NCBI RefSeq assembly: GCF_023016285.1
Contig: NZ_CP095413.1
Location: 248,001 to 312,000, forward strand
DNA length: 64,000 bases
DNA from: Muricauda sp. SCSIO 64092
GTDB taxonomy: Bacteria; Bacteroidota; Bacteroidia; Flavobacteriales; Flavobacteriaceae
Direction: 5' to 3'
The stretch's first letter is position 1, and every line of letters starts with the position of its first letter. A program made the translations under genes and the position numbers. Positions 35,440-52,073 of this stretch are shown piece after piece. Below the pieces are notes generated by a model. The model did not search any database, had not been told where the DNA came from, and saw only the letters and a list, made by a program, of their open reading frames with translations.

Positions 35440-35865
35440 ATGAAAGCCGTATTGTACCTAAGCAAAGCCAATCAGGAATTTGATAAGGAAAGTTTAAAAG
35501 CCCTGGAATTACAATCTGCCGAGAACAACAGGAAGTTGGGGCTCAGTGGTTATCTCTATTTTGATGGTTCCAAATTCTTGCAATATCTCGAAGGGGAAGA
35601 AGAAAACCTAATGCCCCTACTGAACAAAATACGTGAGGACTCCCGTCATGAATTTTTATGCGAGACCCAAGAAGAAATCCCCGCAAAACGATTTCCCGAA
35701 TGGAACATGAAAAATATCCAAAGTATGGTCCTTGAATTGGGCCTGGTGGAAAAAACCATCATTCAAACCCTCAGTATTTTTGTGGAAAAGGGATACCACC
35801 TGGACAAGGGCATTTCCCGCGATTTATTTAAGCTGATGGACCATTTAAAAGTGGTCACTTTTTAA
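35440..35865 (+). CDS. Stand-alone BLUF photoreceptor
   Basis: 141 aa: a BLUF domain (blue-light sensing using FAD) plus a short helical tail with no output domain. The flavin-site residues are in place: Tyr6 in VLYLSKA, Asn30 in SAENNRK, Gln48 in FLQYLEGE, then Trp88 and Met90 in FPEWNM. RxxDSRHEFL near residues 65-73 is also typical. Short BLUF proteins signal by binding a separate partner. The neighbours are trxB (divergent) and a Na/Pi-type transporter (convergent, 10 bp apart); neither is an obvious output. Confidence 0.92.
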   Translation: MKAVLYLSKANQEFDKESLKALELQSAENNRKLGLSGYLYFDGSKFLQYLEGEEENLMPLLNKIREDSRHEFLCETQEEIPAKRFPEWNMKNIQSMVLELGLVEKTIIQTLSIFVEKGYHLDKGISRDLFKLMDHLKVVTF

Positions 35866-35875
35866 CACGCCATCA

Positions 35876-36823
35876 TCAAACCTTGGCCAATTTATCCGGT
35901 AGCCAATAATTCAACAATCTTTCTGCCATACCCACAAAGGGCAGGAAGACCATCACCCCGGCAATATTAAAGATCATATGCGCATTGGCAATTTGATTGT
36001 CCAAAGCCTGGCTTTGGGACACCCTTAAAACGAAGTTGAGAAAGTGGTCAAAAACCAACAATCCAATTATAATGGTCGTAAAATTGAACAACAGATGAAA
36101 AAGGCCAGCTTTAATGGCCTGCCTACTGCCTTTTATCGTTGCAATTAACGTATCCGAACAGGTGCCCAATTCCGAACCCAACATAATGGCCAGTCCCCCG
36201 GCCAAAGAGATAAGCTTCTGTTTCCCCAGCACAATGGCCATACCGACCGTAGCACTTGATGATTGGACAATGAGGGTAATGAGTCCCCCAACTAAAGTAC
36301 CTTTTATCAGATTTTGATCAATATGGGTTATCCATTCCTCAAATACTACACTGTCCCTTAATGGAACTACCGACCGTTCCATGATAAAGAGTCCAAAAAA
36401 CAGCATTCCAAAATAGAACAAGGCGCTGCCGTATCTTTTTAAGGTCTCGCCCCGGGCAAAAAATTCCATCGCCAACCCAACGATCAAGGGAACAACGGCA
36501 TATTTTCCAATATCCAAGGCTATCAACTGACTGGAAAAGGTTGTTCCAATATTGGCGCCCATAATGATCCCTATGGCTTGTTTAAATCTCAGTGTTCCTG
36601 CATTTATAAAGACAATGGCAAGGATAATCACTGCTGAGGACGAACCCAAAAGAATGGTCAGGACCGTGCCAACCACAATGGACAGGACTAGGTTACCGGT
36701 ATACTTGGCGATTATCCGTTTGGCTTTCTCCGTGGCAATGTCCTGCATGGTTTTGGAGAGCCTCGATATCGCATAAATAAAAAGTAAAAGTCCTCCCAAT
36801 AATAGGGGAAGTATTTCTATCAT
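35876..36823 (-). CDS. Na/Pi-cotransporter-like membrane protein
   Basis: 315 aa, about eight hydrophobic segments. The two inverted repeat signatures of the NptA/SLC34-like family are visible: LGSSSAVIILA near residues 60-70 with GANIGTTFSS after it, and IVQSSSATVGMA near 188-199 with LGSELGTCSDT after it. It lacks the C-terminal PhoU-like domain that many bacterial members carry. Expected activity is Na+-driven uptake or export of phosphate across the inner membrane; the anion is not proven. The neighbouring BLUF gene converges on it with only 10 bp between. Confidence 0.88.
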   Translation of the reverse strand: MIEILPLLLGGLLLFIYAISRLSKTMQDIATEKAKRIIAKYTGNLVLSIVVGTVLTILLGSSSAVIILAIVFINAGTLRFKQAIGIIMGANIGTTFSSQLIALDIGKYAVVPLIVGLAMEFFARGETLKRYGSALFYFGMLFFGLFIMERSVVPLRDSVVFEEWITHIDQNLIKGTLVGGLITLIVQSSSATVGMAIVLGKQKLISLAGGLAIMLGSELGTCSDTLIATIKGSRQAIKAGLFHLLFNFTTIIIGLLVFDHFLNFVLRVSQSQALDNQIANAHMIFNIAGVMVFLPFVGMAERLLNYWLPDKLAKV

Positions 36824-36915: not shown

Positions 36916-37047
36916 CTATGAAATGGTTAACTTTTTGTTTCCTATTGGTCCTGCGGACTCCTTTCCTTGATTGGACTGATTTTCTTTGCAAGCACCAAAG
37001 AATAAGGCAAAACCCAACAGGGCACTAAGGGTAATCTTCTTTTTCAT
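36916..37047 (-). CDS. Small lipoprotein (43 aa)
   Basis: A 43-codon gene translated by hand from the sequence. It has MKKK, a hydrophobic core, lipobox LFFGAC with Cys at residue 20, then a short polar tail of 23 residues (KENQSNQGKE...). An AAAAAGAGAAAA purine tract precedes the ATG. It lies 56 bp downstream of sdhB on the same strand, so it may be the last gene of the usp-sdhCAB unit. It is too short for family assignment; a lipid-anchored peptide is the most that can be said. Confidence 0.7.
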   Translation of the reverse strand: MKKKITLSALLGFALFFGACKENQSNQGKESAGPIGNKKLTIS

Positions 37048-37103
37048 TTTTCTCTTTTTAGGTAATCTCAAACACGATTCCCAAACCCATTCCTGGATTT
37101 AGG

Positions 37104-37847
37104 CTACCCCAACCATTTGGCCTTGGTCCTTCTCGCATTCATCTCTGCGATATTGAGAATGGAGATTCCTTCCGGGCATTCCACTTCACAGGCCCCGGTG
37201 AACGTACAACTCCCAAATCCTTCCAACTCCATTTGACGGGTCATTTCCAAAACCCGTTTGGAGGCTTCTTGTTTTCCCTGGGGCAAACTATTTAAATGAT
37301 TGATTTTAGCAGCGGTGAACAGCGAAGCTGAGGAATTTTTACATGTGGCCACACAAGCGCCACAGCCAATACAAGCAGCGGCATCCATAGCTTTGTCCGC
37401 AAGCTCTTTTCCAACCAAAATGGCATTGGCCTCCGGAGCCGTTCCGGTTTTTGCGGATATATACCCCCCTTTTTCAATGATATTGTCCAAAGCGGAACGA
37501 TCGACCACCAAATCCTTGATAATGGGAAAAGCACTGGCCCGCCATGGTTCCACCACTATGGTTTCCCCATCTTCAAAACTTCGCATATGCAACTGACAGG
37601 TGGTCATATGGTCATGTGGGCCGTGGGCCCGCCCATTGATGAAAACCCCACATTGTCCACAGATGCCCTCCCGGCAATCGTATTCATAGGCAATGACCTT
37701 TTTATTGATGGACACCAAAAGTTCATTGAGGTGGTCCAAAGCTTCCAAAAATGACATATCTTTTGTAAGTCCATCTACCTCGTACGATTCAAAATTGCCT
37801 TTGCTGGCCGCATTTTCCTGCCGCCATATTTTGAAAGTGACCTTCAT
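37104..37847 (-). CDS. sdhB: Succinate dehydrogenase/fumarate reductase iron-sulfur subunit
   Basis: 247 aa, carrying electrons from the flavin subunit to menaquinone. The [2Fe-2S] cysteines are Cys58, Cys63, Cys66 and Cys84. The C-terminal clusters use CIGCGACVATC (159-169) and Cys214, Cys220 and Cys224 in CTFTGACEVECPEG. The pattern suits a [4Fe-4S] plus [3Fe-4S] set. It is the third gene of sdhCAB, 31 bp after sdhA. It is a peripheral membrane subunit on the cytoplasmic side. Confidence 0.96.
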   Translation of the reverse strand: MKVTFKIWRQENAASKGNFESYEVDGLTKDMSFLEALDHLNELLVSINKKVIAYEYDCREGICGQCGVFINGRAHGPHDHMTTCQLHMRSFEDGETIVVEPWRASAFPIIKDLVVDRSALDNIIEKGGYISAKTGTAPEANAILVGKELADKAMDAAACIGCGACVATCKNSSASLFTAAKINHLNSLPQGKQEASKRVLEMTRQMELEGFGSCTFTGACEVECPEGISILNIAEMNARRTKAKWLG

Positions 37848-37878
37848 ATCCTATTGTGGTTTATTGCCTTTTCCATTT

Positions 37879-39786
37879 CTATTTATAACTTCTTACGGTA
37901 GGTTGCACATTTTCAAACGCCAGGTCTTCCCTATGTAGGTTAAAATGCCCCTCATTATACTCCCAAGCGGAAACATAGGAATAGGTATCGTCATTCCGTA
38001 GGGCCTCACCCTCACTGGTTTGAAATTCTTCCCTAAAATGCGCCCCGCAGGACTCTTCGCGTTCCAAAGCATCGGTGCACATCAATAGCCCCATTTCCAA
38101 AAAATCGGCCAGGCGAAGTGCTTTCTCCAATTCGGTATTCATCTCCTTATGCCCTCCGGTCACATTGACCTCATTCCAAAAGGCATTGGTAATCCCCTTG
38201 ATTTGGGCAATGGCTTTTTCCAACCCCTCCGCATTTCTGCTCATGGCGCATTCCTGCCACATTACCTTGCCCAGTTCCCGATGAAAATGGTCCACTGTTT
38301 TATTGCCCTGGACAGAAAGCAATTTGTTGATATGTTCCTTCACCTCATTTTCCACCTTTTCAAATTCGGGATGTTCAGTGGTAGGGTGATCCTCTTTTAA
38401 GGCATGGGCCAGATAATTATTGATGGTGTTGGGTAATACAAAATAGCCATCAATGCTTGCCTGCAACAACGAATTTGCCCCCAAACGATTGGCCCCATGA
38501 TCGGAAAAATTGCATTCACCGATGGCATATAGGCCCGGTATGGTGGTCATTAGCTCATAATCTACCCAAAGTCCGCCCATGGAAAAATGGGCAGCCGGGG
38601 AAATCTGCATAGGTTCGTTATACGCATCAACCCCAGTTATCTTTTTGTACATTTTAAAAAGATTGCCGTAGCGATCTTTTATGGTCTCCATACCAAAACG
38701 CTCGATGGCATGTTTAAAATCCAGATATACTGCGTTTTTAAGTCGGCCTACTCCGTACCCCGAATCAATCCGCTCCTTGGCAGCCCTGGAGGCAATATCC
38801 CTGGGGGCGAGGTTCCCAAAACTTGGATAACGCCGTTCCAAATAGTAATCGCGCTCCCCTTCGGGGATGGTATTGGCCTTTCGGTCATCCCCTTTCTTTT
38901 TAGGTACCCAAATTCGCCCGTCGTTACGTAAGGATTCGGACATCAATGTTAGTTTGGATTGTGCCTCACTGGTCTGTGGCAATGCGGTGGGGTGTATTTG
39001 GGTAAAACTGGGAGCAGCAAAATAAGCTCCCCTTTTATGGGCCTTCCAAATGGCACTCCCATTACATCCAATGGCCAGGGTTGAAAGTCGGAACACACGG
39101 GAGTAGCCCCCTGTGGCCAATACCACGGCATCTGCGGCAAAACGCTTTAACTTACCCGTTATCAAATCCCGGACAATGATTCCTTTGGCCCTTCCTTCAA
39201 TGACCACTAGATCCAATAGTTCGTGACGCGGAAACATTTCCACTTTTTTGGCGCGTTTCATTTTGTACAACTGGGAATAGGCCGCCAACAGAAGCTGTTG
39301 TCCCGTTTGACCGCGAGCATAAAAAGTTCGCTGTACCTGAACGCCACCAAAACTGCGGTTGACCAGTACGCCACCGTACTCCCGGGCAAAAGGTACGCCT
39401 TGCTGTACGTAATGATCGATCAAGGGAGCGGAAAGTTCGGCCAGACGGTATACATTGGCCTCCCGTGAACGAAAATCCCCCCCTTTTAAGGTATCGTAGA
39501 ACATTCGCCATACACTATCCCCATCATGCTGATAGTTCTTTGCGGCATTGATACCGCCTTGCGCGGCTACGGAGTGGGCCCTTCGGGCAGAATCCTGATA
39601 ACAAAAGCATTTGACATCATACCCTAATTCGGCGAGCGTTGCAGCTGCACCTGCACCTGCCAGTCCCGAACCCACAACTATAATGTTCAGCTTTTTCTTG
39701 TTGGCAGGGTTGATCAGTTGCGCCTTTATCTGATAGTTGCGCCATTTGTTTTCCAGAGGTCCTTCGGGAATTTTTGAATCCAACAT
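37879..39786 (-). CDS. sdhA: Succinate dehydrogenase/fumarate reductase flavoprotein subunit
   Basis: 635 aa. The start before [14 protein letters not shown] is the conserved Bacteroidota N-terminus; a further Met 14 codons upstream lies inside sdhC and is rejected. The FAD loop is [12 protein letters not shown], followed by [14 protein letters not shown] whose His is the expected covalent FAD site. HPTALPQ and the substrate-site arginines of YERRYPS and [16 protein letters not shown] are also present. It oxidises succinate to fumarate in the TCA cycle. It lies 7 bp after sdhC. Confidence 0.96.
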
Positions 39787-39793
39787 CTTCGAG

Positions 39794-40447
39794 CTATTTA
39801 AGGAATACAATAGATGGAATAATACCAAAACCCACGGCTATGATAATTGCATACACCAAAGAGACCTTGGCTATGGTCCTGAGTCCCCTTTTGTGGTAAA
39901 AACCCAAGGTCATAAAAGCACTTTTCAATCCATGGTGAAGGTGCAACCCCAAGGGAACCATCAGTAGTGTATAGAAAACAACATAATAGCCATTTTGAAA
40001 CAGGCTATAGGTTACCTCATAGACATCTACATGGCCATTGGCATCCAGACCTACCCCCTCACCCATCCCCAGTTTGATACGGGCCCAAAAATTGGCAAGG
40101 TGCACCACTATGAACAATAGGATGGAAATACCCAAAAGCCCCATATTTTGGGAGGTCCAACTGCTGTTCTCCTTATATTGGTTTACCAGGTAACCTTTGG
40201 TTTTGGCCTTTCGGTTATTTATCGTAATCAAGAGGGCGTAGATCACATGTAAGATAATGGAAAGGTACAATATATAGGCTACGATCTTTATCAAGGGACT
40301 CTCCCGTAAGGTGGTCGAGTACGAATTGTACAAACTTCTAGCGGTTTCCTCGGGCAATACCAAAATACTGTTGGCGGAAAGGTGCACAATCAAAAAAATA
40401 CAAAGGAACAGTCCCGTAAGTGCAATAATCGATTTTCTAAAGAACAT
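39794..40447 (-). CDS. sdhC: Succinate dehydrogenase cytochrome b subunit (type B)
   Basis: 217 aa membrane anchor with five hydrophobic spans, the size of the single-anchor, dihaem type B enzyme found in menaquinone-using bacteria. Candidate haem-ligand histidines lie in LIVHLSANS (span 1), ILHVIYALL (span 2), VVHLANFW (span 3) and [12 protein letters not shown] (span 4). It starts 24 bp after the Usp gene upstream, close enough for cotranscription. Confidence 0.92.
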
Positions 40448-40471
40448 TAAGAGCCTGTTTAGGATTTTAGC

Positions 40472-41266
40472 TTAATCGTGGAGAATGAGTAACGGTACGG
40501 GGCTATTGAAGGTTTGTTTCAACGTAACACTTTCGTTCAGCAGACGATCCATAAATCCTTTCTTTGCCCGAATAAGGCAAACCAACCCAGAAAAGTCCTT
40601 CATCAAGTATTCGTTCAAATCCTTATTGGTATCGCCTGTACCAAAGGCATAGTCAACGGAAGTACTCAAATCCTTCATGGCCTCCAGCACCTTTTCAATT
40701 TGAGGGGTTTTCTCATCGGCAATATGCAATATTTTTATGTTGCTTTGATGCATGCCGGCGATTTTAACAAGTGGGCCGATGACCTTGGGATCAGAAAAAG
40801 GGTCATCGCTAACGGCAAATACAATTTTCTCCAAGGGCCTATACGTATGCCCGTCCGGCACCACAATTACAGGAGCAGAGGTTTTGGAAACGACCCCTCC
40901 AGCCACACTGCCCATAAATACCTCTTTAAGTCCGCTAGCCCCTTTGGTGCCCATTACAATAAAGTCATAATGCCCACTATCCCCCAATGAAGCAATTGCG
41001 GAAACGGCGTAGTCTTTAACGATCCTCGTTTTAAAAACCACTTCGGGGTGGTCTTTTTGAACGTTTTCCAAAAGTCCATCCATTCGTTTTTTGGCGTCCT
41101 TTTCCAAAACGTCATCAATGTTTTTCATAAGCAGTGCTGTAGACCTTGCACCGTAAATGTGCAATATGGTCACTTCCAAAGAAGTAGTACTAAAAAGTTG
41201 AATGGCATAGGACAATGCATTGGAAGACGTATCGGAAAAATCAACGGGGACAAGAATCTTATTCAT
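40472..41266 (-). CDS. Universal stress protein, tandem Usp
   Basis: 264 aa with two Usp folds. The first (residues 1-140) starts KILVPVDFSD and carries the ATP-binding motif G-2x-G-9x-G(S/T) as GTKGASGLKEVFMGS (106-120). The second (about 145-264) lacks that motif and is degenerate. Usp proteins of this type bind ATP and modulate survival under energy or redox stress. It is the first gene of a minus-strand unit that continues 24 bp later into sdhCAB, and it is head-to-head with a second usp gene. Confidence 0.9.
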   Translation of the reverse strand: MNKILVPVDFSDTSSNALSYAIQLFSTTSLEVTILHIYGARSTALLMKNIDDVLEKDAKKRMDGLLENVQKDHPEVVFKTRIVKDYAVSAIASLGDSGHYDFIVMGTKGASGLKEVFMGSVAGGVVSKTSAPVIVVPDGHTYRPLEKIVFAVSDDPFSDPKVIGPLVKIAGMHQSNIKILHIADEKTPQIEKVLEAMKDLSTSVDYAFGTGDTNKDLNEYLMKDFSGLVCLIRAKKGFMDRLLNESVTLKQTFNSPVPLLILHD

Positions 41267-41684
41267 TTTTAATTCATTTAGGGTGAATGACCATTTGACT
41301 GGATATCATTTATGCAACCATCAAAGCTTGAGCGTCATCTCCAAGAGGATATGACAGCGGCTTATTATTTCAATATATTCTGAAATTTAACAACAGATTC
41401 TTTAGCAAAACTTTAGAAGGAAAAGGCGCCCAAAAAAACCGTAAAATGGTTACTTCACCCCCATCTTCTTGCTACTTAGGCGGTTGGAAAGCCCCTTTTT
41501 TCAATTTCGATGGAGCACCTATGATTATTTGATTATACTGCCCGATTCTTAAGTTTCTCTAAAGAATTCTTCAATAGTTTTATTGAGATTGGAAATGGTA
41601 CACGAAGAGGCCGTTTTAAACTGCGGCAACGGTAGTGGGGTACCTCATCCGTATATTGTTAACCCTAGTTAAAGGCACGATATC
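41267..41684. promoter_or_regulatory. Divergent control region between two usp-led operons
   Basis: 418 bp without a gene, separating usp-sdhCAB (minus) from usp-TPR-V-ATPase (plus). It is AT-rich at both ends and should hold two opposing promoters. A weak minus-strand match (TTTG then TAAATTTC) lies near 41380-41410. A small palindrome TTAAC-CCTA-GTTAA (41659-41672) lies 12 bp before the plus-strand ATG. No known regulator motif was identified. Confidence 0.6.
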
Positions 41685-42827
41685 ATGAAACTTTTGGAAA
41701 AGATTTTAGTAGCACAGGATTTTAGCCAGTCCTCCGAAAATGTAGTATCCAGTGCCATAGAATTGGCCAAGATATTCCAATCCACAATTGTACCCATTCA
41801 CATACTCCCGGATGATGTTTTAAACGAAAAGGTGAGGACATTGCTGAACGAAACGGCACTGACCAAATTGAAGGAGACCACTGATCAAATTAAGCATGAG
41901 GGGGTAGCGGCCGAAAAACCATTGCTTATGGTTGGCTCACCCCATGAGGCCATCACCAGGGCGGCAGTAGATGTCAGTGCCAATCTCATTCTGTTGGGTT
42001 CGGGTGAAACCAAAAAAGGGGATACTTTTAGATTGGGTACCACGGCCGAGCGCATCATTCAAAAAAGCGGAAAGCCCATTTTTGTGATAAAGGAAGGTGT
42101 TTTACTTAATGTACAACACATTTTGTGTCCCGTGGATTTTTCCGACCCTTCCAAACGGGCGCTTAAAAATGCAATTACGATGGCCCGTAGGTTCAAATCG
42201 GAATTGACCATACTGGCCGTATGCGAACTGCAGGGCTCCACTTGGTTCACTTCGGAGAAGGACAAAGAATTGGAGAACGAACTCAGGTATCGCATGCACA
42301 AAGAGGAATTTGATTCGTTTTTGAAGGAATTCAATCTAACCGGTCTCAATTGGACAAAGGAAATCCCCAAGGGAAATCCTTCCGAGGAAATACTCAGCAC
42401 CATTTCGAAGAAAATGATCGATTTGCTTATTATAGGGACTTCCGGCAGAACCGGGTTGAACCGAATGCTTATGGGAAGTGTTACCGAAAAAGTAATACGG
42501 GAAGTTCCCTGCTCCTTCCTCACCTTAAAATCCGAAGATGCCATTTCCCTACAATTGGAAACCAACATTAGGAACATCGAGGAACTTCATGGCACCGCTA
42601 TGAAATTAATGGAAGATGGTTTTTATGAGGAGGCCATTGGCCAACTCAAAGCCTGCCTGAACATCAATAGCATGTATGTACCTGCCTATACCGGTTTGGC
42701 CAAGGTTTATGAAAAGCTGGACCAACCGGAAAGGGCCAAAGTATATAGAAACAACGCAAAGGATATCATGGACAAGATTTGGTATCAAAAAATAGAGGAA
42801 GAAGTCCGCAAACTACGCGGTAGCTAA
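41685..42827 (+). CDS. Universal stress protein with C-terminal TPR
   Basis: 380 aa. There are two Usp domains (residues about 1-137 and 143-280) and a C-terminal tetratricopeptide pair (about 300-365: MEDGFYEEAIGQLKACLNIN, then YTGLAKVYEKLDQPERAKVY). The second Usp domain has an intact ATP motif (GTSGRTGLNRMLMGS, near 250). The first has an altered one (GSGETKKGDTFRLGT). It ends 15 bp before the V-ATPase subunit A gene, making it the lead gene of that operon. Nucleotide sensing coupled to a TPR docking surface is a reasonable guess. No partner is known. Confidence 0.9.
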   Translation: MKLLEKILVAQDFSQSSENVVSSAIELAKIFQSTIVPIHILPDDVLNEKVRTLLNETALTKLKETTDQIKHEGVAAEKPLLMVGSPHEAITRAAVDVSANLILLGSGETKKGDTFRLGTTAERIIQKSGKPIFVIKEGVLLNVQHILCPVDFSDPSKRALKNAITMARRFKSELTILAVCELQGSTWFTSEKDKELENELRYRMHKEEFDSFLKEFNLTGLNWTKEIPKGNPSEEILSTISKKMIDLLIIGTSGRTGLNRMLMGSVTEKVIREVPCSFLTLKSEDAISLQLETNIRNIEELHGTAMKLMEDGFYEEAIGQLKACLNINSMYVPAYTGLAKVYEKLDQPERAKVYRNNAKDIMDKIWYQKIEEEVRKLRGS

Positions 42828-42842
42828 AAAATATCCGATACT

Positions 42843-44588
42843 ATGCACAAAGCAAAAGGGGAAGTAGTGAGCGTCAACGAGTCGCTCGTTGGTGTTAGAA
42901 CTACCGATGGGGCCATTATGAATGGAGAGGTGGCCTACATCATTGTTGAGGATGGCAAGAGACTAAAATCCGAGGTCATCGATGTGAAAGAAGGCAATAG
43001 GGCCTACCTGCAGGTATTTGAAGATACCAATTGGATGAAGGTAGGTGATCCGGTAGAATTTACAGGCCTTCCTTTGGCGGTAAAATTAGGTCCCGGAATA
43101 TTGGGCTCCGTAACGGATGGGCTACAGAACCCTTTATACGAATTAGGTAAAATTGAATGGTTTTTGGAAAGGGGCCTAGAGGTCGATCCCCTGGACAACA
43201 CCCAAAAGTGGCACTTTACCCCAATGGTAGAGGAAGGTGCGGCCGTTACCGGCAGCACCGTTTTGGGTTCCGTTCCCGAAAAATTATTTGAGCATAAAAT
43301 CTTTGTTCCCTTTTCCATACAAGGCAACCATACCGTTACCCATATCGTAAAAGAGGGCGACTACACCGTTGACGAACCCATAGCCACGATCCAGGACAGT
43401 ACGGGTAAAAGCGTGGAGCTTACGATGGCCTTTGAATGGCCGGTAAAAAGGCCCATGCCCTTCACAGAGCGGTCGGTACCCATAAAACCAATGCCCACGG
43501 GAATCCGAATTTTGGATGCATTATTTCCCATTGCCTACGGTGGCACGGCCTGTAATCCAGGTCCATTTGGAGCAGGAAAAACAGTACTGCAGCACAGTTT
43601 GGCCCGTCACTCCCAGGCAGATGTGGTCATTATTGCCGCCTGTGGCGAACGTGCCGGGGAGGCTGTGGAAGTTTTTAAGGATTTTCCAGAACTCATCGAT
43701 CCTAGGACCGGGAAATCATTAATGGACCGTACCTATATTGTAGGGAACACCTCTTCCATGCCCGTAGCGGCCCGGGAGGCATCCGTTTATATGGCCACCA
43801 CTGTAGGGGAATACTATCGAAAGCAAGGATTGAACGTTTTAATTCTGGCCGATTCCACCTCACGCTGGGCGCAGGCACTTCGTGAGACTTCAGGTAGAAA
43901 GGAGGAAATTCCAGGCCCTGAAGCCTTCCCTATGTACATTTCTACCCTGATCTCCGCTTTTTATGACCGCGCAGGGGTTGAAATCCTAGGAGATGGCAAT
44001 ACGGGGTCGTTGAGCATTATCGGTACCGTTTCCCCAGCAGGCGGAAACTTTGACGAACCGGTTACCCAGGCCACCCTTTTGAGCACCGGGGCTTTTTGGG
44101 GATTGTCCAGGGCTTTGTCCGATGCAAGGAAATACCCCGCTATAGATCGTATAGACAGTAATTCCAAATATCCCTCGCAGTTGGAACAAGAAGAAGTAAC
44201 GTATTTATTGGAATTGCTTCGTGATGGTAAAACCATAGCCTCCAACATTATTTTGATGGGGGAAAAGGGCATTACCGATGAGTCCTACATTCGTTATCAA
44301 AAAGCCGAATTACTCGATGCGGTATTCCTTCAACAAAACAGTTTTCATGAAGTGGATGGAGTGACCCATCCCGAAAGACTGCGCCTAATGTTCAACATGA
44401 TCCAAGAAATCATCGATACACCGGTCGACATCAAAGGAAAGGAAGAAATACGGTCGCATTTCAATTTTATCCGACAGGCCTTTCTCGATTGGAACTATAT
44501 GAAACCGGACGAGGAGGGATTTGACAAACAAAAAACAAAACTATTGAACTTGCTTAAACAGATGGGGCATGTTGCAGAAAACGTATGA
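42843..44588 (+). CDS. atpA: V-type ATP synthase subunit A (catalytic)
   Basis: 581 aa catalytic subunit of the A3B3 head of a V/A-type rotary ATPase (not the F-type alpha chain). The P-loop GPFGAGKT lies at about residues 240-247. It is followed by a GERAGE motif, the family insert region before it, and ADSTSRWAQALRE. The bacterial V/A-type start KGEVVSVNESLVGVR is typical. The stop overlaps the start of the subunit B gene by 20 bp. Confidence 0.96.
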   Translation: MHKAKGEVVSVNESLVGVRTTDGAIMNGEVAYIIVEDGKRLKSEVIDVKEGNRAYLQVFEDTNWMKVGDPVEFTGLPLAVKLGPGILGSVTDGLQNPLYELGKIEWFLERGLEVDPLDNTQKWHFTPMVEEGAAVTGSTVLGSVPEKLFEHKIFVPFSIQGNHTVTHIVKEGDYTVDEPIATIQDSTGKSVELTMAFEWPVKRPMPFTERSVPIKPMPTGIRILDALFPIAYGGTACNPGPFGAGKTVLQHSLARHSQADVVIIAACGERAGEAVEVFKDFPELIDPRTGKSLMDRTYIVGNTSSMPVAAREASVYMATTVGEYYRKQGLNVLILADSTSRWAQALRETSGRKEEIPGPEAFPMYISTLISAFYDRAGVEILGDGNTGSLSIIGTVSPAGGNFDEPVTQATLLSTGAFWGLSRALSDARKYPAIDRIDSNSKYPSQLEQEEVTYLLELLRDGKTIASNIILMGEKGITDESYIRYQKAELLDAVFLQQNSFHEVDGVTHPERLRLMFNMIQEIIDTPVDIKGKEEIRSHFNFIRQAFLDWNYMKPDEEGFDKQKTKLLNLLKQMGHVAENV

Positions 44589-45900
44589 GAACATAGATAG
44601 CATTGGCCGTGCCATTCTGAGCATTAAGGCCCAAGGGGTGCACAACAAGGAATTGGCAGAAGTAATCTATCCCAATGGTCAAAAGGCTTTTGCCCAGGTG
44701 ATTGCCTTGGATGGTGATGAGGTGACCCTACAACTGTTTGGGGGCGGATTTGGCGTTTCAACGGATTGCAAGGTTCGCTTTCTGGGAAAGCCCATACAAG
44801 TAGGATTTTCCGATGATATGTTGGGAAGGGTCTATTCGGGCAACGGTCAGCCCATTGATAAAGGCCCAGAACTGATGTCAGATATGGTCCGGGTGGCCGG
44901 GCCCTCCATCAATCCGGTAAAAAGACTCATTCCCAAAGATATGATTCGTACAGGGGTACCTATGATCGATGTGTTCAACACCCTGGTACGTTCCCAAAAG
45001 ATACCCATTTTTGCTAAAGCGGGCGAACCCTATAACCGTCTGTTGGCCAATATAGCCACCCAAACCGATGCCGATGTTATTATCATTGGAGGGGTTGGAC
45101 TCAAATATGATGAATTCCATTATTTCAGGCAACGTATTGAGGAGGCCGGTAGTAAGAACAAAACCATCATGTTCATCCATACCCACAGGGATTCCATTGT
45201 AGAGGGCCTCATGGTACCTGATTTGGCCCTGGCCGTGGCAGAACAATTTGCATTACAGGGTAAAAATGTATTTGTATTGTTGTCCGATATGACCCAATGG
45301 TCGGATTATCTGCGGCAAGTGGCCAATGCCCAGGACCAGATTCCGGCAAATCAGGGATATCCCGGTGACCTATACTCCCAGTTGGCGAGCCGATATGAAA
45401 AGGCTGCCGACATTGATGGTGCGGGTAGTTTGACCATTTTAGGGGTAACCACCATGGATGACGTTACCCATCCCGTTCCGGACAATACGGGATATATTAC
45501 CGAAGGACAATTTTATATGAAGGATGGCTATCTGGAACTGTTCGGTTCTTTAAGCCGTTTAAAACAACAGGTGAATGACCGAACGCGTCCCGACCACAGA
45601 AGCATTATGAATGCCATGGCGCGATTGCTGTCAGAGGCCGAGGAACGTGTAAAGGCACAGAAGTTCGGCTCGGTCAAGGACGATTACTCCCTACGATTGT
45701 TGGAATATCGAAAGACATTTCAAAGGGAATTGATGGACCCTTTCCGCTATTTGGAATTGGAAGATGCCCTGGATTTATGTTGGGACATCCTTGCCCAACA
45801 TTTTAAAAAGGAAGAAGTAGGGCTGTCCTCCAAGCTGATTGAGGCGTATTGGCCTGAAAAAGGGAAGTTCAAAATTTTAAAAGAAATGATCCATGAGTGA
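44569..45900 (+). CDS. atpB: V-type ATP synthase subunit B (regulatory)
   Basis: 443 aa non-catalytic head subunit. It lacks a true Walker A lysine motif (IFAKAGEPYNRLLANIA stands in its place) and keeps the LSDMTQWSDYLRQVANAQDQIP signature and SLSRLKQQVNDR. The ATG overlaps the end of subunit A and places the N-terminal beta-barrel (TYENIDSIGRAILSIKAQGV) correctly. Its stop overlaps the subunit E start. Confidence 0.96.
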   Translation: MLQKTYENIDSIGRAILSIKAQGVHNKELAEVIYPNGQKAFAQVIALDGDEVTLQLFGGGFGVSTDCKVRFLGKPIQVGFSDDMLGRVYSGNGQPIDKGPELMSDMVRVAGPSINPVKRLIPKDMIRTGVPMIDVFNTLVRSQKIPIFAKAGEPYNRLLANIATQTDADVIIIGGVGLKYDEFHYFRQRIEEAGSKNKTIMFIHTHRDSIVEGLMVPDLALAVAEQFALQGKNVFVLLSDMTQWSDYLRQVANAQDQIPANQGYPGDLYSQLASRYEKAADIDGAGSLTILGVTTMDDVTHPVPDNTGYITEGQFYMKDGYLELFGSLSRLKQQVNDRTRPDHRSIMNAMARLLSEAEERVKAQKFGSVKDDYSLRLLEYRKTFQRELMDPFRYLELEDALDLCWDILAQHFKKEEVGLSSKLIEAYWPEKGKFKILKEMIHE

Positions 45901-46492
45901 GAACACGTTGGAAAAACTGATTGCCACCCTTAAATCAGAAGCCATAGAAGCAGCTGACAATGAAGCGGTAAACATTGTGGAGAGTGCACATGCCCAGGCA
46001 AAAAAAATTATCAAGGAAGCGGAAGCCAAGCGAGAGGAACTGTTGGGCAATGCTGAAAAAGAAGCGCAGGCCACGCTGATCAAAGGTGAGGGTGCCTTAA
46101 AGCAGGCGGCGCGGGATCTTACCGTTTCGGTGCGCAACGATTTGCTGCAATTGCTCAAAACAGTATTGGAAAAAGAGGTGGAGGCCCAATTTACCCCTAA
46201 ACTAATGGAACAGGCCATCACCAATACCATAGCGAATGTGGGTAGTGGGGTCACCCTAACACTTTCCAAAAATGTGGAAACGGAGTTGGCCAAAACAGTC
46301 CAAAAGCAATTGCAGGCGATGGACAATTTGGATTCCATCATCACGGATCCCAGTCTGCTCAAAGGATTTTCGATTACCAAGACCGATCAAGGGTGGAGCT
46401 ACCAAATTTCGCCAAACGCAGTAGCGGAACTGTTGAATGCCCATCTTAGCCCAAAGTGGGTGAACCTCCTTAAAAACGATTTGGATACATGA
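45893..46492 (+). CDS. atpE: V-type ATP synthase subunit E (peripheral stalk)
   Basis: 199 aa. The N-terminal half (to about residue 75) is a long charged helix with alternating Lys/Glu/Ala (AQAKKIIKEAEAKREELLG), and the C-terminal half is a globular domain (SKNVETELAKTV...ITDPSLLKGFSI). This is the layout of the EG-type peripheral stalk. No separate subunit G/H gene is visible in the operon. It overlaps both neighbours by 4-8 bp. Confidence 0.88.
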   Translation: MSENTLEKLIATLKSEAIEAADNEAVNIVESAHAQAKKIIKEAEAKREELLGNAEKEAQATLIKGEGALKQAARDLTVSVRNDLLQLLKTVLEKEVEAQFTPKLMEQAITNTIANVGSGVTLTLSKNVETELAKTVQKQLQAMDNLDSIITDPSLLKGFSITKTDQGWSYQISPNAVAELLNAHLSPKWVNLLKNDLDT

Positions 46493-47070
46493 TTGCGGGA
46501 AACCTGGAATATGTGATGGGCAGCTTACCACATCTATCTTTTAAAGACACGGATGAGGAACGTTCCAGGGTAGTTTCCATCTTTCAAAAATATGCAGGTC
46601 CTTCCGAAACCGGGAAAGGCATTATTGCCATTTTGGATGGGGAAGCCGGTAAGTTTTTAAGTTCCGGTAGTCATCGCATATTTCAACAGATCAATTTGGC
46701 AACCATTCACTCCGAAACCTTTCAAAAAAGTAAAAACAGCGTCCTGGCCATATTTTCCACCTATGTGTTTGCACTTAAAAAGGGCGTACAGCAATTGCGT
46801 ATCGCCCGGAAAAATGGAGCAGACCCCTCCATAACAAAGAAACTTCCATTGTCCTTAGTACCCGGTACACCTCTGGAAGAGGAAATTCAACTCTTAAAAT
46901 TGCAATGGGACCAACTGGAAGAACTTTCCATGGGGCACTACACGGATTTTGCGGCCTTATGCATCTACAAGCTAAAACTATTACTGTTGCTCCGCTGGTG
47001 GAGCTTTGATGAAAAACAGGGTTATGCCAATTTTTTGAACAGCACAAAAAAGACAGAAGATGGCCGATAA
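46489..47070 (+). CDS. DUF2764 V-ATPase-associated protein
   Basis: 193 aa member of DUF2764, recognised by the opening NLEYVMGSLPHLSF and by its place in the V-ATPase operon, as in Chlamydia and Bacteroides. The mid region is helical (LKKGVQQLRIARKN...LPLSLVPGTPLEEEIQLLKLQW, here shown in parts) and ends LLLLLRWWSFDEKQGYANF. Its role is not established. Since no subunit C/d gene is present, a C-like socket role between rotor and membrane ring is a reasonable hypothesis. It starts by ATGA overlap with subunit E. Confidence 0.85.
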   Translation: MIAGNLEYVMGSLPHLSFKDTDEERSRVVSIFQKYAGPSETGKGIIAILDGEAGKFLSSGSHRIFQQINLATIHSETFQKSKNSVLAIFSTYVFALKKGVQQLRIARKNGADPSITKKLPLSLVPGTPLEEEIQLLKLQWDQLEELSMGHYTDFAALCIYKLKLLLLLRWWSFDEKQGYANFLNSTKKTEDGR

Positions 47071-47671
47071 GATTTTGATGAACAAAAATACGCTGGCAGC
47101 CCTAAAAACAGAGCTTAAGGAATACAATACGGCGCTGCCGGTCTTTGAAATGAAGGAACAGCAGTTAAAGGAGGTGGTACAGACCATAGAAAATACCATC
47201 GCCAGACTAAAGCAGGCCATCGCTACCACAAATGAAGGAACAAAAAAATGGGTGGCGGTCATGGCGGAAGAGACAATTGACCTGGCCGAAATCGTAAAGG
47301 TGGAACGTGTCATCACCAAAAAAAGGGAAATCGCAGGAGTGTCCATTGAGGTATTTGAGGACCTTGTCTTTCAAGATGCCGAAATTGACTTTTTCAGCAC
47401 TCCCCTTTGGGTAGATGTGGCCGTACAAGTGATCCAGGAACAGAAAACCAATCGTACACTGGTCGAGATTGAGGAACGAAATCTGGAACTCCTCTGGGAA
47501 GAACTGGCCGAGGCCCGAAGGATGAAAAATGCCCTTAAGGAAGTATTTATTCCCGAGACCAAGGATAACATCCGAAAAATTGAGATTTATCTTGGTGATG
47601 TGGAACGGCTGGCCATAGGATGCGCCAAACTGGTAAAGAAGAAAAAGGAGGAGAAAAAAGTCGTGGTATGA
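47060..47671 (+). CDS. atpD: V-type ATP synthase subunit D (central stalk)
   Basis: 203 aa, mostly two long antiparallel helices, as in the rotor axle subunit D. The N-terminal LMNKNTLAALKTELKEYNTALPV and the C-terminal LWEELAEARRMKNALKEVFIP...LVKKKKEEKK are typical. The start overlaps the DUF2764 gene and the stop overlaps the subunit I start as ATGA. Confidence 0.93.
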   Translation: MADKILMNKNTLAALKTELKEYNTALPVFEMKEQQLKEVVQTIENTIARLKQAIATTNEGTKKWVAVMAEETIDLAEIVKVERVITKKREIAGVSIEVFEDLVFQDAEIDFFSTPLWVDVAVQVIQEQKTNRTLVEIEERNLELLWEELAEARRMKNALKEVFIPETKDNIRKIEIYLGDVERLAIGCAKLVKKKKEEKKVVV

Positions 47672-49515
47672 TCGTAAGGATGAAGGAAATATTGCTTTTT
47701 ACCACCGCGCGCTCCGTGGATGATACCATTTTGCAATTGGGTGAATTGGGCGTTGTGGACATCAAGGAAATCAACCGCCCTGGAAATGGAACCGTAGAAA
47801 GACGTTTGGAAGCGGTACACCGTGCGGAAAGTGCCATTTCCCTTTTAAGGGACCATGTGCCAAAGAACCGTCACCTTGCCAACCGTGTAAAACATACTAC
47901 CAAGGATCCCAAACAACTCGTGGACCGCGTCTTACAGACCGGGGAGATCAGGCAAAAATGTCAGGAAAAAATTGATGAACTCAGCCAACAGTTGAACTGG
48001 TACGGCATCTGGGGCCAAAATGTAGTTACAAAGGACATTCCTTACCTAAAAAAGAAGGGCCTTCACCTCCGGCTATACCTTATGGACAAATCGGTAGCCG
48101 ACACTTTAGATCAAAAACACACTATAGTGAGGTTCCCGGAGCATGATGGTAGGATTCCCCTGGTATTGATTGCCCGAAATGAATCCGAGAAACTGAACCA
48201 TAAGGAAGAATCCCTGCCCAGGGCATCCTTTGGGGACCTTAGTCAGCAAATCGAAAGAAAAAAGCGGCAATTGGCCGAGGTGGAGAATTTCCTGGAGGAC
48301 CAAACCGAAAATATCGCATGGCTTGAAGCGTACCACCTGCACTTACAAGATCGGTTGAGCACACAACAGGCATTGGAAGGTATGGGGGACATTGAGGGAA
48401 GGTTAAAATACCTCAAAGGTTATATTCCCCGAACTGCTGAGGACAATTTTATTGCCGCCGCAGAAGCAAACCACTGGGGATACCATATTGCAGAGCCCGA
48501 AAAACCGGAGGACGTGCCCGTTTATATCAAGAACCCCAAATGGATCAGTATTATCAATCCGGTCATGAAATTCATTGATATTGTGCCGGGGTATAAGGAA
48601 GTGGACGTTTCCATCTATTTTTTGGTTGCCTTTGCCCTATTTTTTGCCATGTTGGTCGGTGATGCAGGTTATGGGCTGATCTTTTTATTGGTCACTTTTT
48701 TCCTTAGAAAAAAATTAACGGCCCAGATGCGCATTTTAATCTATGTGCTCAGTGGGACCACCATTATTTGGGGGGTGCTGAGCGGCACCTATTTTGGAGC
48801 TGAACAAATAGCCGCCCTCCCCTTTCTCAACAACTTGATCATTCCTGAAATTGCAAGTTTTGGGGCGGACAATATTTCCTTTATGATGCACCTATCCTTT
48901 TTGATAGGGGCCATTCATCTTACGATTGCCCATGGTATTCGAGTGTTCCAATTCATCAATTCCATTCGCGCACTGAGCGAGGTGGGTTGGATTGCGTTGG
49001 TATGGGGCCTCTTTTTGATCACTGAACAATTGGTACTTGGCAAGGCCATGCCCGATTGGGGATTATGGTTATTTGTCGGGGGAGCAGCATTGGTAGCCCT
49101 TTTTTCGGTGGAAAGCAAAAACTTTTTCAAAAGTATGGGAGTTTCCATAGCCAACCTGCCCCTGAGCTTGATCAGCGGATTTTCGGACATTGTTTCCTAT
49201 GTAAGGCTCTTTGCCGTGGGGATGGCCACTGCTGCGGTTGCAGCCAGTTTTAACAATATGATTTTACCGGAAGGAATGACAGGTATGGGTATTGTGAACT
49301 TAATCATGGCGGCCATTGCCTTGCTGTTGGGGCATGGGTTGAACATTGCCCTGGCCTTGATGGCCGTCATGGTTCATGGTATCCGGTTGAACATGTTGGA
49401 GTTTGCGGGACATCTGGGAGTCCAATTCTCAGGTGAGGCCTATAAACCCTTTAAACTCATTTCCCCGGAAAACAGAAATAAGAACAAAACAACAATATCC
49501 ATTCAAACAGGATAA
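47668..49515 (+). CDS. atpI: V-type ATP synthase subunit I (membrane stator)
   Basis: 615 aa from the ATGA-coupled start (IVRMKEILLFTT); an earlier Met at 47620 lies within subunit D and is rejected. The N-terminal half is cytosolic and helical (to about residue 310). The C-terminal half has about seven to eight membrane spans. The conserved stretch FSDIVSYVRLFAVGMATAAV near residues 505-530 contains the arginine expected to face the rotor glutamate. This subunit forms the ion half-channels. Confidence 0.93.
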   Translation: MIVRMKEILLFTTARSVDDTILQLGELGVVDIKEINRPGNGTVERRLEAVHRAESAISLLRDHVPKNRHLANRVKHTTKDPKQLVDRVLQTGEIRQKCQEKIDELSQQLNWYGIWGQNVVTKDIPYLKKKGLHLRLYLMDKSVADTLDQKHTIVRFPEHDGRIPLVLIARNESEKLNHKEESLPRASFGDLSQQIERKKRQLAEVENFLEDQTENIAWLEAYHLHLQDRLSTQQALEGMGDIEGRLKYLKGYIPRTAEDNFIAAAEANHWGYHIAEPEKPEDVPVYIKNPKWISIINPVMKFIDIVPGYKEVDVSIYFLVAFALFFAMLVGDAGYGLIFLLVTFFLRKKLTAQMRILIYVLSGTTIIWGVLSGTYFGAEQIAALPFLNNLIIPEIASFGADNISFMMHLSFLIGAIHLTIAHGIRVFQFINSIRALSEVGWIALVWGLFLITEQLVLGKAMPDWGLWLFVGGAALVALFSVESKNFFKSMGVSIANLPLSLISGFSDIVSYVRLFAVGMATAAVAASFNNMILPEGMTGMGIVNLIMAAIALLLGHGLNIALALMAVMVHGIRLNMLEFAGHLGVQFSGEAYKPFKLISPENRNKNKTTISIQTG

Positions 49516-49542
49516 AAAACAAAATCAATAAAATTCTAGATT

Positions 49543-50010
49543 ATGGTAGGTATGGCAATTTTGACAACAACGGTAACAGGACTTGGTGATATGGGAATGT
49601 CATTGAGCATTGCTTCAATTGGATCTGCAATAGGAACGGGAATAGCCGGTATGGCCGCTATAGGAGCCTGGAAAAAAATGATTACCAGCGGACAAAAGGC
49701 GGCAACGGCCCTACTTATTTTTGTAGGGGCCCCGCTTTCACAGGTCATTTATGGTATGATCCTTAAAAATGCGATTGCAGATGCCAACCTCGCACCTGAC
49801 TCCTATCTTTGGCAAATTATCATTGGACTTGTGGCCGGGGCAGCTATGGCAGGTTCTGCCATATTTCAAGGGAAGACCGGAGCTCGGGCCTGTGATGCCA
49901 TTGCTTCCGGTGCCAGCGATACGGCCAAGTACATTATGATCATTGGTATCGTGGAAACGGTTGCCCTTTTTGTAATGATATTTACGATGACCGGACTGCC
50001 GACTGGATAA
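49543..50010 (+). CDS. atpK: V-type ATP synthase subunit K (proteolipid ring)
   Basis: 155 aa, four membrane helices in two hairpins. The single ion-binding carboxylate is Glu138 in IVETVALF (helix 4). Helix 2 has APLSQVIYG (Ser66, Gln67, Tyr70) and helix 3 has IFQGK (Gln109). These positions correspond to Thr64, Gln65, Tyr68, Gln110 and Glu139 of Enterococcus hirae NtpK, the Na+ ligands in its structure. This suggests Na+ rather than H+ coupling. It is the last gene of the operon, 27 bp after subunit I. Confidence 0.94.
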   Translation: MVGMAILTTTVTGLGDMGMSLSIASIGSAIGTGIAGMAAIGAWKKMITSGQKAATALLIFVGAPLSQVIYGMILKNAIADANLAPDSYLWQIIIGLVAGAAMAGSAIFQGKTGARACDAIASGASDTAKYIMIIGIVETVALFVMIFTMTGLPTG

Positions 50011-50136: not shown

Positions 50137-50817
50137 ATGAAAATATTGGTAATAGAAGACAATGTGGAACTGCTACGGGACATCAAAGGTTTTCTGGAGG
50201 AGGAAGGAAACATCTGTGAAATAGCGCCCAACTATAAAAGTGCCCATGATAAAATAGGGTTCTTTCCGTACGATATTTTAGTTGTTGACATTACCCTTCC
50301 GGATGGCAATGGTCTGGATATCATAAGTGAGGTAAAAAAAGAAAGTATTGATGCCGGCATTATTATAATTTCGGCGAAAAACGCAGTGGGGGATAGAATC
50401 CATGGATTGGAAATTGGTGCGGACGATTATTTGACCAAACCTTTTTATCTGGCGGAACTCAACGCACGGATCAAAGCCCTTTACCGAAGAAAAGTCTACA
50501 ATGGCAGTACGGAAATCCTTTTCAACGAAATCAGAATTAAACCGGACAGCTATGAAGTTTTTATCCATGACCGTATTCTGAACCTCACCAAAAAGGAATT
50601 TGACATCATTCACTTTTTTGTGGTCAATAGACATCGCCTCTTGACCAAAGAGGCCATTGCAGAACACCTTTGGGGGGATGACATTGAAATGGCGGACTCT
50701 TACAAATTCATCTACACCCATCTGGCCAATCTTAGGAAAAAAATTGCCGAATTGGGCGGGAACGACTATATTCAATCCATCTACAGTGTTGGATACAAAT
50801 TCACGGATCGCGAATGA
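50137..50817 (+). CDS. Response regulator, OmpR/PhoB type
   Basis: 226 aa. The receiver domain (1-120) has the acidic pair ED at 7-8, phospho-acceptor Asp51 in VVDITLPDGNG and the conserved Lys in LTKPFY. The winged-helix DNA-binding domain (about 128-224) has TKKEFDIIHFFVVN and the recognition region YKFIYTHLANLRKKI...YIQSIYSVGYKF. It overlaps the histidine kinase gene (ATGA). It lies 126 bp after the V-ATPase operon on the same strand. Confidence 0.95.
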   Translation: MKILVIEDNVELLRDIKGFLEEEGNICEIAPNYKSAHDKIGFFPYDILVVDITLPDGNGLDIISEVKKESIDAGIIIISAKNAVGDRIHGLEIGADDYLTKPFYLAELNARIKALYRRKVYNGSTEILFNEIRIKPDSYEVFIHDRILNLTKKEFDIIHFFVVNRHRLLTKEAIAEHLWGDDIEMADSYKFIYTHLANLRKKIAELGGNDYIQSIYSVGYKFTDRE

Positions 50818-52073
50818 ACCTCGTCAGAAAGACCAATACGTACTATCTCCTATTTCTGGCCCTTATTTTTCCAGTCATGCTTTCCATGGATTATTACCTT
50901 ATTCAATATTTGGTGAACGGTGAGGTAGAAGAACTCCTCTTACACGAGCGTGAACGTATCGATTTTCATCTTAAGGAAGAAGGTGCACTTCCCACCTCCA
51001 ATTATTTGTTTCAAACCGTTCCTGTAAAAGAAGGTTCAACGTTCAATGAAGTATTCAGGGATACCTTATTGTATGAAGCCTATGCTGACAAAAACATCCC
51101 TTATCGCATCTACACGTTCAAATCGTCCATAAATTCCCAACCCGTAAAAATCTCCCTCAAACATATTCTGTTGGAAATCAATGAGCTCATATGGACGCTT
51201 TTTGTAACCACCAGTTTTATTATCGTATTGCTGGCCCTCGGGTTTTACTTCATCAATCGTAAAATATATAAATGGGCATGGAACCCCTTTTTCAAGAACC
51301 TCGCAAAACTCAAACAATATGATGTGACCAAAAAGGAACCCATCCACCTTAAAAGCTCCAATATCATAGAGTTCGAAGAGCTGAACCATGTGATTACGGA
51401 CTTGATACATCAAGTAAAGAAAGACTTTCAGAACCTCAAGGAATTCAACGAAAACATTTCACATGAAGTGCAGACTCCCCTAGCCATTATCCGAAACAAG
51501 GTGGTCTTGCTTTTGGAGAGCCAAAACCTTGATGAAAAGGAACTTCAGCGGATGCAAGCTATTTATCAAGAAACCAATAAACTCTCAAAAATAGGAAAAT
51601 CACTGACCCTAATTTCGAGGATCGAAAACCAGGAATTTAAACGATTGGATAGTGTGGATGTCCATACCATTATAGGGAACATTCTCAGTCATATGGAGGA
51701 GATCATTAACTTTAAACATCTTACCGTATCCACGGAACTGAATCCCGTGACCATAGAATGTGATCATATATTGGCCGATATCCTGCTCACCAATCTTATC
51801 AAAAATGCCGTGCAGCACAACAAGGAGGGTGGAGTGATAAAAATGGCTTTGAACGAGGAGAAATTTGAAATTATCAATACCGGCGAGATTTCCGAGATAG
51901 CCACCGAAAAACTGTTCAACCGGTTTCAAAAAGGCAGTTCGGTAAAAGAGTCCCTTGGACTGGGCTTGGCCATCAATCAAAAAATATGTGAAATCTATGG
52001 ATTTCAATTGGATTATCAACGCAAGGATAAAATACACACGTTTTCTTTGTTCTTTAAAAGAAACAAAGAGTGA
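50814..52073 (+). CDS. Sensor histidine kinase
   Basis: 419 aa. Two membrane helices (about residues 10-32 and 124-148) flank a periplasmic sensor of about 90 residues with no recognised fold. The H-box ENISHEVQTPLAIIRN carries His217. The ATPase domain has the N-box LTNLIKNAVQHN and a short G-box (KESLGLGLAINQ). The D-box is reduced (FEIINTGE), as in many small Bacteroidota kinases. It is paired with the response regulator and is followed 48 bp later by ppc. Confidence 0.93.
   Translation: MNLVRKTNTYYLLFLALIFPVMLSMDYYLIQYLVNGEVEELLLHERERIDFHLKEEGALPTSNYLFQTVPVKEGSTFNEVFRDTLLYEAYADKNIPYRIYTFKSSINSQPVKISLKHILLEINELIWTLFVTTSFIIVLLALGFYFINRKIYKWAWNPFFKNLAKLKQYDVTKKEPIHLKSSNIIEFEELNHVITDLIHQVKKDFQNLKEFNENISHEVQTPLAIIRNKVVLLLESQNLDEKELQRMQAIYQETNKLSKIGKSLTLISRIENQEFKRLDSVDVHTIIGNILSHMEEIINFKHLTVSTELNPVTIECDHILADILLTNLIKNAVQHNKEGGVIKMALNEEKFEIINTGEISEIATEKLFNRFQKGSSVKESLGLGLAINQKICEIYGFQLDYQRKDKIHTFSLFFKRNKE

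Follow-up and report, generated by a model that had tools for sequence, protein, structure and literature searches.

A 64,000-nucleotide stretch of the genome of Muricauda sp. SCSIO 64092 (contig NZ_CP095413.1, positions 248,001 to 312,000; here called the window) carries two divergent operons, each led by a gene for a universal stress protein (Usp). On the minus strand, uspS is followed by the complex II genes sdhC, sdhA, and sdhB, and on the plus strand, uspT, encoding two Usp domains and a tail resembling tetratricopeptide repeats (TPRs), is followed by the genes of a V-type ATPase. Our analysis of this locus and its relatives leads us to suggest, with moderate confidence and on sequence evidence, that it forms a single co-regulated accessory energy cassette, in which a two-component switch would turn on a fumarate reductase and an ATP-driven Na+ pump when respiration fails.

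Gene order, strands, and spacing were as given in a preliminary description of the same DNA: uspS and sdhC are 24 bp apart, uspT and atpA are 15 bp apart, and the divergent region between the two usp genes (41267-41684) measures 418 bp. The families named there were also confirmed, with PF00582 above its cut-off in uspS and uspT, sdhC_b558, SdhA, and SdhB for complex II, and V-type A, B, I, and K together with ATP-synt_D for the V-ATPase. The plus-strand unit extends beyond 50010, where that description ended, to regulator genes at 50137-52073. The features of the two operons, in window coordinates, are as follows.

37104..37847, minus strand: sdhB/frdB, iron-sulfur subunit (NF005746 above cut-off)
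37879..39828, minus strand: sdhA/frdA, accessory flavoprotein subunit (NF005749 above cut-off; accessory clade in the tree)
39794..40447, minus strand: sdhC/frdC, cytochrome b558-type membrane subunit (TIGR02046 above cut-off)
40472..41266, minus strand: uspS, two-domain universal stress protein (PF00582; ATP motif in domain 1, residue 106)
41382..41389, minus strand: -7 element of the uspS promoter, TAnnTTTC, 7 nt after the box
41397..41416, minus strand: candidate regulator box of the uspS promoter, CTAAAG-N5-CTAAAGAAT (exact box; no more than 2 mismatches in 14 of 17 loci)
41548..41567, plus strand: candidate regulator box of the uspT promoter, CTTAAG-N5-CTAAAGAAT (exact box; 0-1 mismatch in 16 of 17 loci)
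41575..41582, plus strand: -7 element of the uspT promoter, TAnnTTTA (TAnnTTT in place in 16 of 16 loci with the box)
41685..42827, plus strand: uspT, two Usp domains and C-terminal TPR-like helices (PF00582; ATP motif in domain 2, residue 251)
42843..44588, plus strand: V-type ATPase subunit A, atpA (NF003220 above cut-off)
44569..45900, plus strand: V-type ATPase subunit B (NF002555 above cut-off)
45893..46492, plus strand: probable subunit E (by position; no Pfam match; aligns at 22% by tblastn with the E position in operons of other Bacteroidota)
46489..47070, plus strand: DUF2764-like protein (by position; 20.5 bits, below the cut-off of 24.1)
47060..47671, plus strand: V-type ATPase subunit D (PF01813 above cut-off)
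47620..49515, plus strand: V-type ATPase subunit I, longest open reading frame (ORF), overlapping D (NF004429, 405 bits, below its equivalog cut-off)
49543..50010, plus strand: V-type ATPase rotor subunit K, four helices (NF005174 above cut-off)
50137..50817, plus strand: OmpR-type response regulator (PF00072 and PF00486 above cut-offs)
50814..52073, plus strand: sensor histidine kinase (PF00512 and PF02518 above cut-offs)

The strongest sign of joint control lies in the divergent region. Scanning genome contigs with uspT returned 14 loci, comprising 12 relatives (72-99% identical) and two Algoriphagus matches (22%) not considered further; the 12 relatives, four loci from a family search (G369, G366, G019, and G308), and the window make up 17 distinct loci. 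Alignment of their 17 divergent regions revealed two conserved blocks in opposite orientation, each containing a box. Read in the direction of its gene, each block consists of CTWAAG-N5-CTAAAGAAT, a gap of 7 nt, and a -7 element of the form TAnnTT(T). The sigma-A -7 box of Flavobacterium is given as TAnnTTTG at -12 to -5 (PMC9723704), and in this register the repeat would span about -39 to -20. Because the same rare box recurs in both promoters, each time followed after 7 nt by a -7 element, coordinated control is supported, as the preliminary description had proposed, with the likely controller being the two-component system encoded after the V-ATPase and not the Usps.

The exact box is found twice in the 5.69-Mb genome, both times in the divergent region. 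When the pattern was extended to the promoter level, 16 whole genomes yielded 9 matches, all in the divergent region of six regulator-bearing genomes; the remaining ten genomes had none, nor did the reversed control produce any. We considered whether the exact box might govern a large regulon in this genome and rejected this: only one further site appeared at 1 mismatch, and sites with at most 2 mismatches numbered 17 + 15 compared to 20 + 22 for the control. Matches to sigma-70-type promoters (38; shuffles mean, 32.1) and terminator-like sites (19; shuffles mean, 22.5) were not used as evidence.

The response regulator joins a receiver to a winged-helix DNA-binding domain, and its kinase gene adjoins it. 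Orthologues at least 80% identical are present in 6 of 397 family genomes, the same six that carry a window-type V-ATPase with the box, and G308 (locus L082), which has a window-type V-ATPase, lacks the box, and no regulator in it passed the search threshold. A view from outside the window came from more distant regulators (46-56% identical). Of 30 loci, six belonged to the cassette's own orthologues and were left out, leaving 24 (L129-L152); five more matches had no locus. Near these regulators' own genes, 11 exact copies of CTNAAG-N5-CTNAAG occur in 10 of the 24 loci, compared to an average of 0.075 over 40 shuffles (maximum, 1) and to 0-3 copies when the spacer was given other lengths from 0 to 11. 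With one mismatch allowed, a copy lies no more than 120 bp upstream of the regulator gene in 9 of the 24 loci (other spacers, 0-1), read on the strand away from that gene or, once, on both. The DNA-binding region of the regulator family is well conserved. These repeats therefore tie the box to the OmpR-type regulator family independently of the window, and we predict that the OmpR-type regulator encoded after the V-ATPase likely controls both boxes. The distant Flavobacteriaceae regulators with the repeat at their own genes also offer a lead to their regulons.

Direct-repeat boxes, such as the PhoB box, belong to OmpR/PhoB-family regulons, and the system described here resembles these in its receiver and winged-helix regulator and in a direct repeat with an 11-bp period over the -35 region. 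It differs in the half-site CTWAAG, in the flavobacterial -7 box, and in having a regulon of apparently two promoters.

The complex II of the window is of type B, with flavoprotein, iron-sulfur, and b558-type membrane subunits all present. The longest ORF of sdhA starts with TTG, but translation more likely begins at an inner ATG near 39786. A second, housekeeping succinate dehydrogenase (SDH) is encoded elsewhere in the genome. An SdhA tree was built from 46 rows, namely the window, 25 of the 29 loci L162-L190, and 20 housekeeping sequences, leaving out L172, L174, L183, L187, and five further matches without a locus. In this tree the 20 housekeeping and 16 accessory sequences form one group each (100/100), and four V-ATPase-linked rows group at 100/99 within the accessory clade. 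Accessory-type SdhA (at least 81% identical) was present in 18 of 388 genomes, in 4 of them at a V-ATPase. Among ten accessory contexts away from V-ATPases, five (L191-L195) have genes for a Dcu transporter, aspartase, and type II asparaginase and then C, A, and B, while L200 has aspartase before A; family names in the Dcu operons were NCBIfam-confirmed for two loci (asparaginase in one) and otherwise given by sequence likeness. Because its nearest kin sit partly in such fumarate-respiration operons, we read the window enzyme as probably a fumarate reductase, more so than an enzyme of the tricarboxylic acid cycle. What the preliminary description called complex II does have complex II subunits, in an accessory copy more likely to work as a fumarate reductase. 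Its C-A-B genes are closely related to those of L191-L195 (SdhA, 84-86% identical); unlike them, they are led by uspS, face a V-ATPase, and have no Dcu, aspartase, or asparaginase gene beside them. The L191-L195 operon itself looks like a system for aspartate-to-fumarate respiration in Flavobacteriaceae.

On the other strand, the V-ATPase operon encodes the catalytic subunits A and B, subunit D, subunit I, and the rotor subunit K. Classical Na+ V-type ATPase operons encode separate F and G subunits; neither was found in this operon, which holds A, B, E-like, DUF2764-like, D, I, and K only, the rest of the genome not having been searched for them. Few subunits are also noted for the V-type ATPase of Bacteroides (PMC10197588). 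The Na+ ligands of the Enterococcus hirae K subunit are listed as E139, Q110, T64, Q65, and Y68 (PMC2359735). The K subunit of the window keeps these ligand types as E138, Q109, S66, Q67, and Y70, with a single conserved glutamate of the ligand type; the residues were taken from an alignment with other Bacteroidota K subunits because a search of K against the PDB gave no match at 0.001. The numbering follows the PGTQGLYG motif. Two more ATP-synt_ab proteins elsewhere in the genome best match F-type subunits by position, making it likely that the V-ATPase would serve as an ATP-driven pump and not as the main ATP synthase.

The closest described counterpart is the Bacteroidota V-type operon with DUF2764, as in Bacteroides fragilis, which shares A, B, D, I, K, E-like, and DUF2764-like genes and for which the same Na+-ligand types are argued, in a text that calls the enzyme functionally uncharacterized (PMC10197588). 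Compared to six other Bacteroidota V-type enzymes, subunit A of the window is only 43-47% identical, and the Bacteroidota order E-DUF2764-A-B-D-I-K is replaced by A-B-E-DUF2764-D-I-K, led by uspT.

How much of this arrangement is kept in relatives differs between its parts. The nearest loci, with uspT 98-99% identical, belong to 'Flavobacteriaceae bacterium GF1' and a Croceivirga metagenome-assembled genome. In all 17 loci uspS and uspT are divergent and uspT precedes atpA, so the arrangement is more than chance. Intact sdhCAB follows uspS in 11 of the 17; beside uspS, L031, L033, L080, L081, and L082 have no complex II gene and L027 has only an sdhC stub, and in G366, G019, and G308 the accessory complex II was absent elsewhere as well. 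The pairings of the preliminary description thus held in every locus for uspT and the V-ATPase and failed in six for complex II beside uspS. The idea that uspS is a part of complex II was rejected, as uspS stays with uspT where complex II is absent. Thirteen loci extend past atpK, and 12 of them have the regulator and kinase genes after it, L082 being the exception; in L080 these come after two more usp genes and a transporter-like ORF, and L029-L032 end before the regulator region.

Of 397 Flavobacteriaceae genomes, 9 had V-ATPase subunit A: in 7 it is of window type (82-100% identical), always with uspT directly upstream, and in the other 2 it is of a different type (45%). Two genomes from the same genus as the window had no V-ATPase in this family search. 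In the two carriers of the other type, G069 and G283 (L085 and L084), a different usp stands before atpE, 11 bp away in G069, where the order is E-DUF2764-A-B-D-I-K. Subunit B of V type occurred in 8 of 395 genomes of a phylum sample, two of them window-type, and in the other six tblastn detected no usp in the sequence covered, which for one of them reaches just 418 bp upstream. The A subunit of G069 shares 58-61% identity with those six enzymes and 45% with that of the window, and these identities, with the leading usp genes, therefore point to a Usp-first order in two V-ATPase lineages.

Both leading Usps carry the ATP-binding motif G-2x-G-9x-G(S/T), in one domain each. The TPRs that the preliminary description placed in the second Usp were recovered in a predicted model as four C-terminal helices (286-310, 314-327, 332-344, and 348-379) behind two Usp domains, as expected for two TPR pairs, while the profile match stayed below its cut-off (19.8 bits; cut-off, 26.8). 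The model has a mean predicted local distance difference test score of 81, falling lower at 253-264 and 283-293; the uspT alignment covers 16 sequences from part of the loci. A uspT search of 5.8 billion proteins gave 770 matches at E 1e-30 or better, the best 120 of which were universal stress proteins, mostly of Flavobacteriaceae, and were little used as they came with no gene context. Full-length uspT relatives were present in 7 of 299 family genomes, three with a window-type V-ATPase and four (38-49% identical) with no V-ATPase nearby, 1.5 kb having been read in one of these four. A uspT relative in G112 (L043, 1501-2628) has internal stops and lies near a transposase-like ORF. Extra two-domain usp genes stand beside the cassette in L035 (4649-5461), L036 (1966-2778), and L080 (1172-2825). 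In the window's own genome, many usp genes stand in a row together with genes for a sensor kinase and a receiver protein (G000:C1:2541500-2561000; L201).

Three further genes flank the operons.

35876..36823, minus strand: sodium/phosphate (Na/Pi) symporter-like gene (NF037997 above cut-off), next on the strand of the complex II genes
36916..37071, minus strand: small lipoprotein-like ORF of 51 codons, doubtful
52122..54839, plus strand: phosphoenolpyruvate (PEP) carboxylase, found after the kinase in some loci and possibly linked

The Na/Pi symporter-like gene adjoins uspS where complex II is absent (L031 and L033), and beside it in the window lies a gene for a BLUF blue-light sensor (35440-35865). 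Support for the lipoprotein-like ORF is weak, as tblastn matched it in 1 of 12 scan loci (L026). The gene at 52122..54839, which we take to be PEP carboxylase, follows the kinase in six loci and was not seen in five others within 0.8-1.9 kb; its product could supply oxaloacetate.

Taken together, we propose that the regulator, once phosphorylated by its kinase, would bind each of the boxes, at roughly -39 to -20, and switch on both operons together, possibly with positive feedback since the regulator and kinase genes lie downstream of the V-ATPase genes. The minus-strand operon would provide a fumarate reductase as an electron sink, and the plus-strand operon an ATP-driven Na+ pump that may uphold the ion gradient when respiration cannot. 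The Usps would be co-induced partners, and uspT may use its ATP motif and TPRs to link the ATPase with ATP status. Several observations weigh against this proposal. Intact complex II is missing in 6 of 17 loci and is hence not core; no DcuA/B was found in this genome, and only 1 of 7 carriers has one; and 4 of the 10 accessory contexts have no Dcu, aspartase, or asparaginase genes. In L027 and L028 the box on the uspS side carries 3 mismatches and counts as degenerate; on that side the -7 element is TAnnTT in the 14 loci whose box has no more than 2 mismatches, and its third T is retained in just 10 of 16 loci. Fourteen of the 24 paralogue loci have no exact box, and as some share a genus or are close kin, they do not count as fully separate tests. 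Loss of respiration as the inducing signal is guessed from the kinds of parts present.

The boxes could instead answer to a different, unlinked regulator, with the neighboring two-component system controlling something else. An imperfect inverted repeat is a second possible reading of the box, which would allow for another dimeric regulator, and since the regulator gene of the cassette has no exact box beside it, nothing points to direct autoregulation. We nevertheless consider this explanation very unlikely, given that the same six genomes hold box and regulator, that the box-less V-ATPase carrier also lacks the regulator, and that paralogous regulators carry the repeat at their own genes with this spacing only. 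There is a better, though still minority, chance that the accessory complex II is an ordinary second SDH and that the cassette serves salt or envelope stress and not loss of respiration. Profiles are undecided between succinate dehydrogenase and fumarate reductase, the missing DcuA/B and the adjoining Na/Pi symporter fit this idea, and the V-type ATPase of Bacteroides fragilis is described as mattering for fitness in deoxycholate (PMC10197588). Against it stand the housekeeping SDH elsewhere in the genome, the aspartase genes beside nearest kin in six of ten contexts (five of them Dcu-aspartase-asparaginase operons), and the PEP carboxylase near part of the loci.

The preliminary description had attributed the coordination of complex II and the rotary ATPase to the Usps, which would sense ATP and possibly make physical contact with the enzymes. 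A precedent is TeaD, the Usp of the Halomonas ectoine transporter TeaABC, an ATP-motif Usp tied to a membrane transport system (PMC3673472) and said to act on that transporter in a similar way. UspT likewise shares an operon with a transport system and stays adjacent to atpA in every locus, a different usp leads the other V-ATPase type, each Usp of the window has one ATP motif, and uspT has its TPR-like tail. Compared to TeaD, the window has two Usp domains with TPRs and a putative tie to a rotary ATPase, and uspT matches TeaD at the family level only (E 3.5e-4). Coordination by Usp contact seems unlikely to us, as uspS persists in the six loci where complex II is gone, the four distant uspT relatives are not beside a V-ATPase, the leading usp of G069 has no perfect ATP motif, and the transcriptional switch already accounts for coordination. 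A narrower idea, also rather doubtful, is compatible with that switch: uspT may be a soluble ATP-sensing partner of a rotary Na+-ATPase, its TPR tail docking on V1 and its Usp pair setting pump activity by ATP status, while the twin boxes set the amounts of pump and fumarate reductase. Such a role could be the reason for Usp-led operons in two Flavobacteriaceae V-ATPase lineages.

The kinds of parts in this cassette are known, and literature searches found no description of their combination with a dedicated switch. If the proposed cassette is correct, it offers a compact unit for how some Flavobacteriaceae may survive the loss of respiration, in which one switch governs both an electron sink and an ion pump. 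It further yields a predicted DNA box for a family of regulators that many Flavobacteriaceae possess, and it would provide a natural case in which Usps, proteins of mostly unknown function, are linked to a named enzyme.

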